Below, piece by piece: positions 23,080 through 48,464 of a stretch of DNA of 64,000 nucleotides. The stretch comes from Streptomyces asiaticus (GTDB lineage: Bacteria > Actinomycetota > Actinomycetes > Streptomycetales > Streptomycetaceae), in assembly GCF_018138715.1 (NCBI RefSeq), contig NZ_JAGSHX010000006.1, positions 6,820,001 through 6,884,000 of the forward strand, written 5' to 3'. The notes beneath the pieces were generated by a model that did not search any database, was not told the DNA's origin, and was given only the letters and a program-made list of their open reading frames with translations. The position numbers and the translations under genes are program-made. Within the stretch, counting starts at the first letter, position 1. Every line of letters starts with the position of its first letter.

Positions 23080-25818
23080 GTGGCAGAGAAAGCATCGAAG
23101 AAGACCGCAGCGCCCGCGACCGACCGCACCGGGGCAGACCGCCCCCGCCTGCTCCTGCTGGACGGGCATTCCCTGGCATACCGGGCGTTCTTCGCGCTGC
23201 CGGCGGAGAACTTCAACACGACCACCGGCCAGACCACCAACGCGATCTACGGCTTCACCTCGATGCTGGCGAACACGCTCCGTGATGAGCAGCCCACGCA
23301 CCTCGCCGTGGCGTTCGACGTCTCGCGCAAGACCTGGCGCTCCGAGCAGTTCACCGAGTACAAGGCGAACCGCTCCAAGTCCCCCGACGAGTTCAAGGGT
23401 CAGGTCGAGCTGATCGGCGAGCTGCTCGACGCCATGAAGATCACGCGCTTCGCGGTGGATGGCTTCGAGGCCGACGATGTGATCGCCACGCTCGCCACCC
23501 AGGCCGAGGAGCAGGGCTTCGACGTCCTGATCGTCACCGGCGACCGGGACTCCTTCCAGCTGGTCACCGACCATGTCACGGTGCTCTACCCCACCAAGGG
23601 CGTCTCCGAGCTGACCCGGTTCACCCCCGAGAAGGTGCAGGAGAAGTACGGCCTCACCCCGAGCCAGTACCCCGACTTCGCGGCGCTGCGCGGCGACCCG
23701 TCGGACAACCTCCCCGGCATCCCGGGCGTCGGCGAGAAGACCGCGGCGAAGTGGATCAATCAGTTCGGCTCCTTCAAGGAGCTGGTGGAGCGGGTCGAGG
23801 AGGTCAAGGGGAAGGTCGGCGAGAAGCTCCGCGACCACCTGGAGTCCGTGAAGCTCAACCGCCAGCTGACCGAGCTGGTGCGGGACGTGGAGCTGGCCGT
23901 CGGCCCCGAGGGGCTCGAGCGCGCCCCGTACGACCGGGAGGCGCTCGGGGTGATCCTGGACGCGCTGGAGTTCCGCCACCAGAACTTCCGCGACCGGATC
24001 ATGGCCGTCGACCCGGGCGCGGCGGCGGACGAGCCCGCGGCCACCGAGCCGGGTGTCGCGGTCGACGGGGTGGCGCTGGGCGCGGGCGAGCTCGCCCCCT
24101 GGCTGGAGAGCCACCGCGACGCCCCGCTGGGCCTGGCCACCGTCGACACCTGGGCGCTGGGCAGCGGCAGTGTCAGCGAGGTCGCGCTGGCCACCGGCTC
24201 CGGCCCCGCCGCCGTCTTCGACCCCTCGCAGCTGGACGAGGCCGACGAGCGGGCGTTCGCCGAGTGGATCGCGGACCCGGACCGCCCCAAGGTGCTGCAC
24301 AACGCCAAGGGGATCATGCGGGTCTTCGCCGAGCACGGCTGGTCCGTCGCGGGCGTCTCCATGGACACCGCCCTCGCCGCCTATCTGGTCAAGCCCGGCC
24401 GCCGCTCCTTCGAGCTGGACGCCCTGTCGGTGGAGTACCTGGGCCGTGAGCTGTCCCCGGCGGCGGCCGCGGACGGCGGACAGCTGGCCTTCGGCGCCGA
24501 TGAGGAGGCCGAGCGGGACGCCCTGATGATCAAGGCGCGGACCATCCTGGACCTGGGCGAGGCCTTCGACGGCCGGCTCAAGGACGTGGGCGCGGCCGGG
24601 CTGCTGCACGACATGGAGCTGCCCGTCTCCGAGCTGCTGGCCCGGATGGAGCGGTCGGGCATCGCCGCCGACCGCGGCTGGCTGGAGCGCATGGAGCAGC
24701 AGTTCGCGGCCGCCGTGCAGCACGCCGTGAAGGAGGCCCACGACGCGGTGGGCCATGAGTTCAACCTCGGCTCGCCCAAGCAGCTCCAGGAGGTGCTCTT
24801 CGGCGAGCTGGGCCTGCCCAAGACCAAGAAGACCAAGACCGGGTACACCACGGACGCCGACGCGCTGGCCTGGCTGGCCGCGCAGACCGACCACGAGCTC
24901 CCGGTGATCATGCTGCGCCACCGTGAGCAGGCGCGGCTGCGCTCCACCGTCGAGGGCCTGATCAAGACCATCGCCCCCGGCGGCCGCATCCACACCTCCT
25001 TCAACCAGACCGTGGCGGCCACCGGCCGGCTCTCCTCCACCGACCCCAATCTCCAGAACATCCCGGTGCGCACCGACGAGGGCCGGGCGATCCGGCGCGG
25101 CTTCGTCGTCGGCGACGGCTTCGAGTCGCTGATGACCGCCGACTACAGCCAGATCGAGCTGCGCGTCATGGCCCATCTCTCCGAGGACGAGGGCCTGATC
25201 GAGGCGTTCACCTCCGGTGAGGACCTGCACACCACGGTCGCCTCCCAGGTCTTCTCCGTCGACAAGTCGGCGGTCGACCCGGAGATGCGCCGCAAGATCA
25301 AGGCCATGTCCTACGGGCTGGCGTACGGCCTGTCCGCGTTCGGCCTCTCCCAGCAGCTGGGCATCACCCCCGACGAGGCCCGCAAGCTGATGGAGAACTT
25401 CTTCGAGCGGTTCGGCGGGGTGCGCGACTATCTCCAGCGGGTCGTCGAGGAGGCGCGCGCCACCGGCTATACGGAGACCATGCTCGGCCGCCGCCGCTAT
25501 CTGCCGGACCTCACCAGCGACAACCGCCAGCGCCGCGAGATGGCCGAGCGGATGGCGCTCAACGCCCCGATCCAGGGCACCGCCGCCGACATCGTGAAGA
25601 TCGCGATGCTCAAGGTGGACGCGGCGTTGACGAAGGAGAAACTCTCGTCGCGGATGCTGTTGCAGGTCCACGACGAAATCGTGCTGGAGATCGCCCCCGG
25701 TGAGCGGGAGCGGGTGGAGGAGCTGGTGCGCCGGGAGATGATGGGCGCCTTCCAGCTCAGCGCTCCGCTGGACGTATCGGTAGGATCCGGTGCGGACTGG
25801 GAGTCCGCGGCTCACTGA
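23080..25818 (+). CDS. polA: DNA polymerase I
   Basis: 912-residue repair and Okazaki-fragment polymerase. The N-terminal 5'-3' exonuclease domain (LLLDGHSLAYRAFFALP, GFEADDVIATLA, VTGDRDSFQL, GDPSDNLPGIPGVGEKTA) spans about 1-310. The middle proofreading domain is degenerate: the DxE pair of active 3'-5' exonucleases is not visible, as in other actinobacteria. The polymerase domain has motif A DYSQIELRVMAHLSEDEG, motif B RKIKAMSYGLAYGLSAFGL and motif C LQVHDEIVLE. The GTG at 23080 gives VAEKASKKTAAPATDR as N-terminus. It is placed directly behind a damage-type promoter. Confidence 0.96.
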   Translation: MAEKASKKTAAPATDRTGADRPRLLLLDGHSLAYRAFFALPAENFNTTTGQTTNAIYGFTSMLANTLRDEQPTHLAVAFDVSRKTWRSEQFTEYKANRSKSPDEFKGQVELIGELLDAMKITRFAVDGFEADDVIATLATQAEEQGFDVLIVTGDRDSFQLVTDHVTVLYPTKGVSELTRFTPEKVQEKYGLTPSQYPDFAALRGDPSDNLPGIPGVGEKTAAKWINQFGSFKELVERVEEVKGKVGEKLRDHLESVKLNRQLTELVRDVELAVGPEGLERAPYDREALGVILDALEFRHQNFRDRIMAVDPGAAADEPAATEPGVAVDGVALGAGELAPWLESHRDAPLGLATVDTWALGSGSVSEVALATGSGPAAVFDPSQLDEADERAFAEWIADPDRPKVLHNAKGIMRVFAEHGWSVAGVSMDTALAAYLVKPGRRSFELDALSVEYLGRELSPAAAADGGQLAFGADEEAERDALMIKARTILDLGEAFDGRLKDVGAAGLLHDMELPVSELLARMERSGIAADRGWLERMEQQFAAAVQHAVKEAHDAVGHEFNLGSPKQLQEVLFGELGLPKTKKTKTGYTTDADALAWLAAQTDHELPVIMLRHREQARLRSTVEGLIKTIAPGGRIHTSFNQTVAATGRLSSTDPNLQNIPVRTDEGRAIRRGFVVGDGFESLMTADYSQIELRVMAHLSEDEGLIEAFTSGEDLHTTVASQVFSVDKSAVDPEMRRKIKAMSYGLAYGLSAFGLSQQLGITPDEARKLMENFFERFGGVRDYLQRVVEEARATGYTETMLGRRRYLPDLTSDNRQRREMAERMALNAPIQGTAADIVKIAMLKVDAALTKEKLSSRMLLQVHDEIVLEIAPGERERVEELVRREMMGAFQLSAPLDVSVGSGADWESAAH

Positions 25819-28005: not shown

Positions 28006-29007
28006 ATGCGCCGCAGAGCAAGTCTGGTGCTGCTGGCCTTCGCCGTCTTCTTCGCCGCACTCGCGCCGCTGCTGCGCTGGTACGCCTATCCCCGGCTGGC
28101 CAAGATCCCGCCCAGTGAGTACCAGACGGCCGTGATGGAGGCCGGCCCGGCCACACTGCTCGACTACGGCACCATGAAGCCCCGCACCGTCCCCAAGGTC
28201 AGCATCGTGCAGACCCTGCGCGGCAATGTGCCCGCCGCGAAGAAGGTCGGGAAGGCGACCGGGCGCGATGTCGTCGTCTGGGACACCCTGTCGTATGTGG
28301 CCGGGCCCGACGGCAAGATGGTCTCCAAGATCCCCGAGCGCTATGTCTTCGACGCCCACTCCCAGGACCCGGTGCACGCGGGCGGCGAACACGTCGACGG
28401 GGACGCGGTGCGCCGCGACGGCATCGAGTACAAGTGGCCGTTCCTCACCGAGAAGCGCGACTACCGCTACTTCGACGCCCAGACCCGCACCTCCGCCCCC
28501 ATCCACTACAAGGGCACCCGCGACTTCCGCGGTCTGGAGGTCTACTACTTCGAGCAGACCATCCCCTGGACCAAGGTGCCGCTGCCCAAGACCATGCCGG
28601 TCAACGGCGTCACCCCCGAGACCGTCCGCAAGGCCGGCACCTCCCGCTGGTACAGCACCAAGCGGATGTTCTGGGTCGAGCCCACCACGGGCGCCCCGGT
28701 CAACGGGCAGGAGATCCACAAGGAGGAGCTGCGCGGCGGCACACTGCTGGGCGACCGCGACCGGGTGACCGTCTTCTCCGGCCATGTGAAGATGCGCGAG
28801 GACTACATCCGGCACACGGTGGACATGGTCAAGTCCCAGCGCCAGCTGGTCCTGCTGCTCACGGCCTATCTGCCGTGGGGCTTCCTGATCCTGGGGCTCG
28901 CCCTGCTCGCGCTCGCGCTGCTGCTGGAGGCGCGCGCCCGCGGGGCGCGCCCGCCGGCGGCCCCGGCGGCGCCGACCGCGTTGTCAGTGGCGGGCCGTAG
29001 CGTATGA
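28006..29007 (+). CDS. DUF3068 membrane protein (PorA-family-like)
   Basis: 333-residue protein anchored at both ends. An N-terminal hydrophobic helix (LVLLAFAVFFAALAPLLRW) is followed by a large external beta-rich domain with WDTLSYVAGPDGK and Tyr/Phe-rich strands, then a C-terminal membrane helix (LLLTAYLPWGFLILGLALLA) and a basic/proline tail. This is the DUF3068 architecture known from actinomycete envelope proteins; function is unknown. The ATG at 28006 has GGAGGG nine bases upstream. The last eight codons double as a damage-type promoter for the next gene. Confidence 0.85.
   Translation: MRRRASLVLLAFAVFFAALAPLLRWYAYPRLAKIPPSEYQTAVMEAGPATLLDYGTMKPRTVPKVSIVQTLRGNVPAAKKVGKATGRDVVVWDTLSYVAGPDGKMVSKIPERYVFDAHSQDPVHAGGEHVDGDAVRRDGIEYKWPFLTEKRDYRYFDAQTRTSAPIHYKGTRDFRGLEVYYFEQTIPWTKVPLPKTMPVNGVTPETVRKAGTSRWYSTKRMFWVEPTTGAPVNGQEIHKEELRGGTLLGDRDRVTVFSGHVKMREDYIRHTVDMVKSQRQLVLLLTAYLPWGFLILGLALLALALLLEARARGARPPAAPAAPTALSVAGRSV
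28981..29003 (+). promoter_or_regulatory. RecA-NDp/PafBC-type promoter inside the DUF3068 gene
   Basis: TTGTCAGTG (28981-28989), N8, TAGCGT (28998-29003) is a full match to the TTGTCRGTG-N8-TAnnnT consensus and to the uvrB promoter of this window. It is embedded in the end of the upstream coding region, and the next start codon lies 6 bases after the -10. Confidence 0.78.
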
Positions 29008-29009
29008 CC

Positions 29010-29630
29010 ATGCCAGTGAACAGCTGCGTCCCCGGTCCCGAGCTCATCGGCCACATCGCCGACTTGGCGCGCCTGGAGTGGACCCCGGGCGCCACGGCGG
29101 CCGCCGCGAAGCGCTTCGGCTGGGTGCCCGACGGCTCCCGCACGTCCTCGTACGCCACCAACACCGGGCACTATGTCCTCCCGGAGTGGTTCGGCGGGCC
29201 CGACGACGCGGACACCGAATGCATGATCCCGTTCTGTTACTACTACGAACCGGACGACTTCGACGCGGAGTTGCAGGCCGACGGGCTCAGCGGCAATGTC
29301 GACTGGCTCGCCGGATACCACTCCGGCGACCCCGGCTGGGTCTTCGACCGCGAGGCCGACCGCTCCGGCTTCGACGGCCGGTGGCGCGCCGCGGTGGACG
29401 GCTTCAGCGAGCGCCTGGGCGAGCCGGAGACCGTGGTGCGGGACGAGAAGGGCGACCACCCGTGGAACTACGCGGCGTGGCGCTGCGGCGGCAATGCGGT
29501 GGTGGTCGGCCAGTGCGTCGACAACGGCTCGTACATGACCTTCGAGCAGGCGCTCATATGGGTGGGGCCGCACCCCGTGGACGAGCCGTTTCCGACGGGG
29601 GAGCAGTTCGCCCTGAGGCTGGAGTGCTGA
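29010..29630 (+). CDS. Unknown protein behind a DNA-damage-type promoter
   Basis: 206-residue acidic, soluble, tryptophan-rich protein (MPVNSCVPGPELIGHIADLARLEW...). It has no signal peptide, membrane segment or recognised catalytic motif. Features seen are WTPGATAAAAKRFGW near the N-terminus, YYYEPDDFDAEL, and a beta-rich C-terminal half with WRCGGNAVVVGQCVDNGSYM. Two starts compete. The ATG at 29004 overlaps the DUF3068 stop (ATGA), whereas the ATG at 29010 lies at the expected transcription start of the embedded promoter. I chose the latter. Coupling to the upstream gene and independent damage induction could both occur. Confidence 0.7.
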   Translation: MPVNSCVPGPELIGHIADLARLEWTPGATAAAAKRFGWVPDGSRTSSYATNTGHYVLPEWFGGPDDADTECMIPFCYYYEPDDFDAELQADGLSGNVDWLAGYHSGDPGWVFDREADRSGFDGRWRAAVDGFSERLGEPETVVRDEKGDHPWNYAAWRCGGNAVVVGQCVDNGSYMTFEQALIWVGPHPVDEPFPTGEQFALRLEC

Positions 29631-29791
29631 CTGGGGTTCGAGCGCTGAGGGAGCCGGGGTGCTGAGCGGGGTGCTGGGCGGGCCGGGGTGCTGGGCCCCC
29701 GCGGCCGTCGCGTCAACATCCGTCCTCGCGATTCGCTCGTGGTGGCCAAGCCGGTAGTGATCAGGGTGAGGGCGTGGCTAGCATGCCGCCC

Positions 29792-30010
29792 ATGCCTGGC
29801 ATCACGATTGAGTTCACCGAGCAGGAGCTGGCCGAGCTGCGTGCCGAGGCGAGGGAGAAGGGCGTCGAGATCAAGCGGCTGGCGCACGACATACTGACCG
29901 AGGACGTGGTGCGGCGGCGTCAGAAGCAGCGCTTCGTCGAGGGCGCCGTGAAGTTCGCCCTGGCCTACAAGGCCGAGTTCGAGCGGGAGTTCCCGCACGG
30001 CATGCGGTGA
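29792..30010 (+). CDS. Antitoxin-like protein of a Fic-type toxin-antitoxin pair
   Basis: 72-residue charged helical protein (MPGITIEFTEQELAELRAEA...) with an N-terminal beta strand plus helix, as in ribbon-helix-helix or small DNA-binding antitoxins, and a basic middle (VVRRRQKQRF). Its stop overlaps the downstream toxin GTG (GTGA), the classic arrangement of type II modules. The ATG at 29792 follows a TAGCAT box by 7 bases and may be leaderless; ATG 29783 with GAGGG upstream, or GTG 29774, are alternatives. Confidence 0.65.
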   Translation: MPGITIEFTEQELAELRAEAREKGVEIKRLAHDILTEDVVRRRQKQRFVEGAVKFALAYKAEFEREFPHGMR

Positions 30011-30384
30011 TCCTGTACGTTGACGCCGGTTGGGTGCTGAACGTCCAGGTCGAGGTCTCCCCGGTGAACACCCCGGTCCGGGACTGGGGTGCGCTGCACT
30101 GCATGACCGAGCGCCACCGCTACGAGCGGTTCGCGGGCGAGCCCTACTACGAGGAGGCCGCCGCCCGCGCCGCGACCTTTCTGCACACCTCACTGATTCT
30201 CGAGCCGTTCTCCGACTACAACGCCACGATCGGCGCGGCCTGCGCGCAGATGTACATGGAGGAGTCCGGAGAGCCGATCGCGCCGCCGCCGGGCGCCATG
30301 GTCAAACTGGTCCGCGACATACGGGAGATCAGCGCCTTCCGCCTCGGCGAAACCGCCCGCCGCTTGCGCGCTTGGGCCGACTGA
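30007..30384 (+). CDS. Fic/Doc-like toxin component with degenerate Fic motif
   Basis: 125-residue protein resembling the short Doc-type Fic proteins: a helical body and, in the place of the HxFx(D/N)xN(K/G)R active-site motif, the sequence EPFSDYNATIG. The catalytic histidine is replaced by Glu, and the final Arg is missing. So AMP-transfer or phosphorylation of EF-Tu by the known mechanism is not expected, unless the family uses other residues. The GTG start overlaps the antitoxin stop. It is followed by a long repeat tract without genes. The Fic assignment is by motif position and context, not by strong similarity. Confidence 0.6.
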   Translation: MILYVDAGWVLNVQVEVSPVNTPVRDWGALHCMTERHRYERFAGEPYYEEAAARAATFLHTSLILEPFSDYNATIGAACAQMYMEESGEPIAPPPGAMVKLVRDIREISAFRLGETARRLRAWAD

Positions 30385-30922
30385 TCCCGACGGATACGCT
30401 GCGCTGCTCACTGCGTACCGGGTTTCCTACCGGGTCCCGGCTTACCGCGTCGCGCGGCCCGCTCCCGCACGTGTCCTACGGCGTCCCCGTCTTACTGCGC
30501 CACGCGGCCCACTGCGTCCCGTCGTCCCGCTGCGCCGCGCATCCCCTGGGCGGTGCGCCTCCTGAGTGGCGCGGCCCCTTGGCTGCGTGCCCCAGCGTCC
30601 CAGCGCCCCAGCGCCCCACGCGTCCTACGCGTCCTACGGCGTCGCCCCGCCATCCCACTGCGCCACGCAGACCACCGTGCAACGCGGCCCCTGCCTCCCG
30701 CGACTCACAGGGCCGCCGCGGCCCACTGCGTCCCGTTGTCCTCATACGCCGCGCACCTCCGGAGCGGCACGCTTCCCGAGCGGCGCGGCCTCCAGTAGCG
30801 GCGCGGCCCGCTTGGCCGTGTGCCCCGGCGCACCAGGGGTCCTACGGCCCCCTGTCGTCCCACTGCGCCGCGTGGCCCACCGCGCCCCGTGGTTCAACTG
30901 CGCGACCTCTCGGCCGCATTGC
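30385..30922. repeat. 538-bp degenerate repeat tract without genes
   Basis: The tract is built of diverged copies of a C-rich sequence. TCCTACGGCGTC-type words followed by CACTGCGCC(A/G)CG recur near 30474, 30632 and 30839, and GCGGCCCACTGCGTCCCG occurs near 30504 and again near 30718. No frame in it looks coding; codon bias is lost and stops interrupt. It probably grew by local duplication and decay. It separates the toxin gene from the end of hrpB. Confidence 0.6.
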
Positions 30923-48441: not shown

Positions 48442-48464
48442 TTGTCAGTGGCGAGTCGTACGGT
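48442..48464 (+). promoter_or_regulatory. RecA-NDp/PafBC-type promoter of uvrB
   Basis: TTGTCAGTG (48442-48450), N8, TACGGT (48459-48464) fits the damage-promoter consensus exactly. The uvrB ATG follows 7 bases later. Confidence 0.85.

Follow-up and report, generated by a model that had tools for sequence, protein, structure and literature searches.

A probable PafBC-type promoter element overlapping the end of a DUF3068 gene in Streptomyces asiaticus

RecA-NDp promoters and the element of the window

In mycobacteria, PafBC is described as acting through RecA-NDp promoters (PMC6789036, PMC8223512), for which a reported consensus is tTGTCRgtg - 8 nt - TannnT (PMC5656591). Single-stranded DNA is reported to trigger PafBC in these bacteria (PMC11804915), and the regulator is described as inserting between the -26 element and sigma region 4 (PMC10936776). 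For Streptomyces, one report gives the UV-inducible recA promoter of S. rimosus as TTGTCAGTGGC-N6-TAGggT and describes 67 S. coelicolor genes with related motifs, collected with SIGffRid, uvrB, ung and dnaE being among those named (PMC2375139). The macrodomain gene SCO6735 of S. coelicolor is reported to be UV-induced and to carry a RecA-NDp promoter (PMC5087735; also PMC9411070). According to a 2022 study, an initial search had suggested a lack of conservation of the M. smegmatis PafBC motif in S. venezuelae, and a PafBC-type response had yet to be shown in Streptomyces (PMC9380542). Among the literature matches listed, none was a paper on the gene described here, as judged by title or abstract.

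The window analysed here, a 64,000-nt stretch of the S. asiaticus genome (contig positions 6820001-6884000), carries TTGTCAGTG-N8-TAGCGT at 28981-29003, within the final codons of a DUF3068/PorA gene and ahead of a gene for a 206-aa protein (Table 1). Direct reading of the sequence confirmed the letters and coordinates of what a first-pass annotation had called a full consensus promoter inside the end of DUF3068. The boxes, the spacer length and the position before the gene start are those of the mycobacterial RecA-NDp/PafBC regulon, and recA and uvrB of the same genome carry the same element. In contrast to the mycobacterial promoters, the element overlaps the coding 3′ end of an upstream gene, and its target is lineage-restricted and uncharacterised. 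The S. rimosus recA promoter and the SIGffRid set share both motif and genus with this locus, and uvrB, ung and dnaE are also among the 21 sites of the present genome, although the reported set comes from S. coelicolor and S. avermitilis (PMC2375139). SCO6735 resembles the 206-aa gene in having this type of promoter without being one of the classical repair genes, but its promoter is intergenic and its product is an ADP-ribosyl hydrolase.

Table 1. Coordinates of the features discussed, numbered from the first nucleotide of the window.
Feature	Coordinates	Strand	Remarks
DUF3068/PorA gene (PF11271, 284.6 bits)	28006..29007	+	last codons overlap the probable promoter; TGA stop at 29005-29007
-26 box TTGTCAGTG of the probable RecA-NDp/PafBC-type promoter	28981..28989	+	exact consensus
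8-nt spacer GCGGGCCG	28990..28997	+	length 8 in 16/16 loci
-10 element TAGCGT	28998..29003	+	its TAG doubles as the DUF3068 stop codon in five other loci
206-aa protein gene	29010..29630	+	start codon 7 nt past the -10; ATG at +7/+8 in 16/16 loci
Small antitoxin-like gene of the Fic-like pair	29792..30010	+	sub-threshold CopG_antitoxin match only
Fic/Doc-like gene	30007..30384	+	degenerate motif EPFSDYNATIG; overlaps the antitoxin-like gene
Second exact match to the family consensus within the window, ahead of uvrB	48442..48464	+	start codon at +8

When the window was searched with the full letters of the element at up to 3 mismatches, 2 matches were obtained against 0.40 expected from shuffled sequence: the site at 28981, which is exact, and the uvrB site at 48442, with 2 mismatches. 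The LexA SOS box is a palindrome with the pattern CGAACN4GTTCG; at up to 1 mismatch it occurs 4 times in the window, which is the number expected by chance, and the nearest occurrences lie at 24246 and 62512. It had also been remarked that the spacer start GCG.G.CG is common to the uvrB site. The letters are indeed present, but they weigh little, both because the published Streptomyces form already extends to TTGTCAGTGGC as given in that report (PMC2375139) and because, among nine representative loci, no other part of the element is as poorly conserved as the spacer.

Based on the comparisons presented below, we consider it highly likely that the element at 28981-29003 works as a RecA-NDp promoter within the PafBC regulon, and membership of the 206-aa gene in the known DNA-damage response is very probable.

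The 206-aa gene, its relatives and the downstream pair

The closest relatives of the 206-aa protein are found in S. violaceusniger NBRC 13459 (99% identity) and S. rapamycinicus (96%), which places the chromosome in the S. violaceusniger/rapamycinicus group as far as this protein can tell. Any match at all was obtained in 15 of 295 Streptomyces genomes, and a strong one in 6, the S. asiaticus genome included; a large database yielded 6 proteins by single sequence and at least 35 by profile, with the 7992 best candidates scored. The earlier description of a protein without a known family holds, as no family cut-off was reached in Pfam, NCBIfam or PADLOC scans. DUF6301 (PF19818) matched 8 of 13 family members weakly (best E 0.0093); membership was rejected, the window protein scoring 11.6 bits against a Pfam gathering cut-off of 27.2 bits. 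One source names the S. coffeae ortholog SUKH/SMI1-KNR4. This assignment was likewise rejected, with no match at E≤1 in Pfam (13 relatives) or NCBIfam (3), and a macrodomain match to the 206-aa protein was not found in Pfam.

Two structure models of the protein are confident and alpha/beta; comparison with solved structures gave no confident match, a Mog1/PsbP/DcrB-type fold being among the candidates considered. No signal peptide or membrane segment was seen by eye. Fifteen positions are invariant in 29 relatives, nine of them aromatic or glycine, and the polar ones are H54, R118, D122, R158 and S174. Because of this predominance of aromatic and glycine residues, and because no family or catalytic motif was found, we would guess, tentatively, that the protein is not a repair enzyme but a small, soluble accessory protein of the alpha/beta type that binds a partner.

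Conservation above orthologs, which the first-pass annotation had proposed as a check, was examined in a scan of named genomes that returned 14 loci with a relative of the gene. The motif lies above the gene in 13 of them, exactly in 10 and with CTGTC for TTGTC (one mismatch) in 3; the sole miss is a Yinghuangia relative (37% identity, other context), upstream of which the motif is absent. Where the gene follows DUF3068, in 16 loci comprising the window, L037-L049, L005 and L006, the motif is kept in every case, the spacer is always 8 nt and the ATG stands at +7 (13 loci) or +8 (3 loci). CTGTC occurs in four of the 16 (L046, L048, L049 and L006), and the L006 relative, at 51% identity, combines this form with an ATG at +8. 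ATG codons are present in the window at both 29004 and 29010; the former is absent at the corresponding position in 8 of the 16 loci, and 29010 is the conserved start, in agreement with the gene start assigned at first. Distant homologs in other contexts (L007-L015) gave no match at up to 2 mismatches in 7 of 9 cases, and the other two (L010 and L013) gave only unrelated-looking 2-mismatch matches. Three of these distant relatives (L008, L009 and L011), without the damage motif, lie directly behind the apparent end of a gene that we take to be of the FtsW/RodA type.

A Fic-like pair of genes begins 161 nt downstream of the 206-aa gene. The second member contains EPFSDYNATIG, which we read as a degenerate Doc motif, and has a weak PADLOC PDC-S23 match (E 0.0011); Pfam and PDB sequence searches gave no match. 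The pair follows the gene in L037-L045, L002, L003 and L005; in L046-L050 and in L006 it was not found within about 3 kb downstream (1.5 kb in the case of L006). Strong conservation over the 75 nt preceding the ATG of the pair is seen in 11 loci, in the form GGTAGTGATCAG...TAGCAT-N7-ATG, with TAGCAT-N7-ATG in 10 of the 11 and TACCAT in one. Short GC-rich tandem repeats with units of 8, 9, 12 and 17 nt surround the pair at 29655-30892, the majority falling in the long gap that separates it from an opposing helicase-like gene.

These observations bear on the suggestion that the pair could be co-induced, that is, that the element drives a three-gene operon of the 206-aa gene and the pair. The genes share a strand, the gap is short enough to be counted in favour of an operon, and a T-run scan detected no terminator-like site within it. 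The start of the gap is, however, predicted to fold strongly, the pair is preceded by a conserved region of its own in which a TANNNT box stands 7 nt ahead of the ATG, and in L046-L049 and L006 the gene and motif are kept while the pair was not found within the roughly 3 kb (L006, 1.5 kb) of downstream sequence covered. An operon is therefore improbable and co-induction is not favoured; a promoter belonging to the pair itself would be the simpler reading.

Other sites in the genome and genus, and the regulator

The pattern TTGTCRGTG-N8-TANNNT has 21 exact matches in the 11.9-Mb genome, compared to 0 for the reversed control and 0 for a variant with an 11-nt spacer. Counted by eye, it occurs in 246 of 246 sampled Streptomyces genomes at 5-50 sites each, and the reversed control gave 19 matches in 18 of these genomes. 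The 8-nt-spaced motif is thus strongly enriched throughout Streptomyces. The 11-nt variant was found in 33 of 121 Streptomyces genomes, and among the 37 matches listed 23 are, by eye, one repeated 26-mer. Spacer length matters for this motif. The 26-mer itself, TTGTCAGTGCAATTTCACATTACTAT, is present in 23 exact copies in 20 of the 121 genomes (G039, G018, G042, G083 and others), plus two near variants. As YTGTCRGTG-N8-TAGCNT matched in 20 of 21 genomes searched, CTGTC forms included, with a reversed control of zero, the CTGTC variant is probably tolerated.

The likely downstream proteins of 17 of the other 20 genomic sites were scanned with Pfam; L018, L023 and L027 were left out because they lack a convincing gene start close behind the motif. 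Seven of the 17 belong plainly to repair or replication (RecA, UvrB, uracil-DNA glycosylase, DnaE, MgsA/RarA, an AlkZ-like glycosylase and a BRCT-domain exonuclease), and six are others (PhoH, a sigma factor, a SWIM protein, a GNAT enzyme, an MFS transporter and DUF6221). The remaining four (L021, L033, L034 and L035) are without a Pfam match and, standing behind exact PafBC-type motifs, are candidate damage genes too. The L018 and L023 motifs sit inside opposite-strand frames without a convincing gene of their own; these matches may be false, and for this reason an exact match is not in itself proof of a promoter. The L035 motif falls within the 3′ end of a 492-codon frame on the same strand, which ends 13 nt past it, making this a second site in the genome that overlaps the end of an upstream same-strand frame, like that of the window.

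A start codon lies 7, 8 or 9 nt past the motif at 11 of the 21 sites (3, 7 and 1, respectively), whereas any other distance up to 60 nt accounts for at most 2 start codons across all sites, counting frames of at least 100 codons with GC3 >0.8. The recA site is ambiguous in this respect, since the usual recA start presumably lies farther downstream of the motif. With its ATG at +7, the 206-aa gene fits the leaderless pattern of the genomic sites.

The genome also encodes what would be the regulator. At one locus (L083), pafA (TIGR03686, 758.6 bits) is followed by a WYL/WCX protein and then by an HTH_PafC/WYL/WCX protein, which by their sequences are assigned as PafB and PafC. We propose that upon DNA damage PafBC would occupy TTGTCAGTG at about -26 and bridge RNA polymerase carrying the main sigma factor to the -10 element TAGCGT. 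Transcription would then begin at or next to 29010 and produce a predicted leaderless mRNA for the 206-aa protein. PafBC binding, the start site and induction are all predictions of this model. An alternative is that the promoter is real but constitutive, or that a different regulator acts on it through the same element; one example would be ClgR, for which recognition of the M. smegmatis recA P1 promoter has been reported (PMC5656591). As PafBC is described as the regulator of RecA-NDp promoters in mycobacteria (PMC6789036, PMC8223512) and the present genome has a pafBC pair behind pafA, we regard this alternative as very unlikely, and PafBC is the regulator we favour.

The element across DUF3068 endings

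The 16 DUF3068-adjoining loci differ in how the upstream reading frame ends. In eight, the window included, the DUF3068 stop begins 24 nt after the motif start and the gene reads through the motif in the same frame; these eight are close relatives, and the 16 loci are not independent. In five others the stop begins 17 nt after the motif start, such that the -10 element supplies the stop codon through its TAG and the motif occupies a second frame. In the last three the stop lies 18, 46 or 74 nt before the motif, which is then outside DUF3068. Column conservation, calculated from nine representatives chosen among the 16 loci, reaches 0.94 in the -26 box and 1.00 at TA...T, compared to 0.74 in the spacer and 0.57 in the 60 nt upstream. 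Within the -26 box of these nine, TGTC and GTG do not vary; position 1 holds T or C, and position 6 holds A or G.

DUF3068 is present in 91 of 121 genomes, and the best 30 loci were compared over a region reaching from 60 nt upstream to 400 nt downstream of the stop (the contig of L056 ends 29 nt after it). Four of these 30 have the 206-aa gene and show 0, 0, 0 and 1 motif mismatches. At the 26 DUF3068 loci in genomes without a match to the gene, the best motif match had at least 4 mismatches. Retention of the motif across three DUF3068 endings, and its absence without the gene, argue that the conservation is of DNA rather than protein and is tied to the downstream gene. We consider this evolutionary pattern the strongest argument for the promoter. 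Although the shared frame in half of the loci, and a packing of the genes so close that read-through would be easy, would suit a motif that merely reflects codon usage at the DUF3068 C terminus, through chance or protein constraint, with the downstream gene expressed by read-through, this explanation is hardly credible given the second-frame and outside positions in the other half, the 26 loci without gene or motif, and motif columns far above the flank in conservation.

The ortholog data thus support the proposal of a PafBC-type promoter embedded in the upstream gene and serving an uncharacterised gene from about 29010. Its position over the end of DUF3068 would follow from the close packing of the two genes. 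DUF3068 would accommodate the promoter in one of three ways, its frame continuing through the element, stopping at the -10 TAG or terminating before the element is reached.

The motif class is already in print for Streptomyces; what appears to be new is a well-supported additional regulon member with an unusual overlapping anatomy, which adds a conserved, uncharacterised gene to the likely PafBC regulon. The occurrence of the motif in all sampled Streptomyces genomes bears on the statement quoted above from the 2022 study (PMC9380542), and agrees with the older work on S. rimosus and S. coelicolor. The footprint, in which the same DNA stands in three relations to the upstream reading frame, separates selection on the promoter from selection on the protein. 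It is possible, if doubtful at present, that the gene is a lineage-specific, unrecognised effector of the damage response, perhaps with a new fold, and one case of damage promoters written over the end of the preceding gene. If this is true, in some species a single TAG would be both the -10 element and the translation stop.
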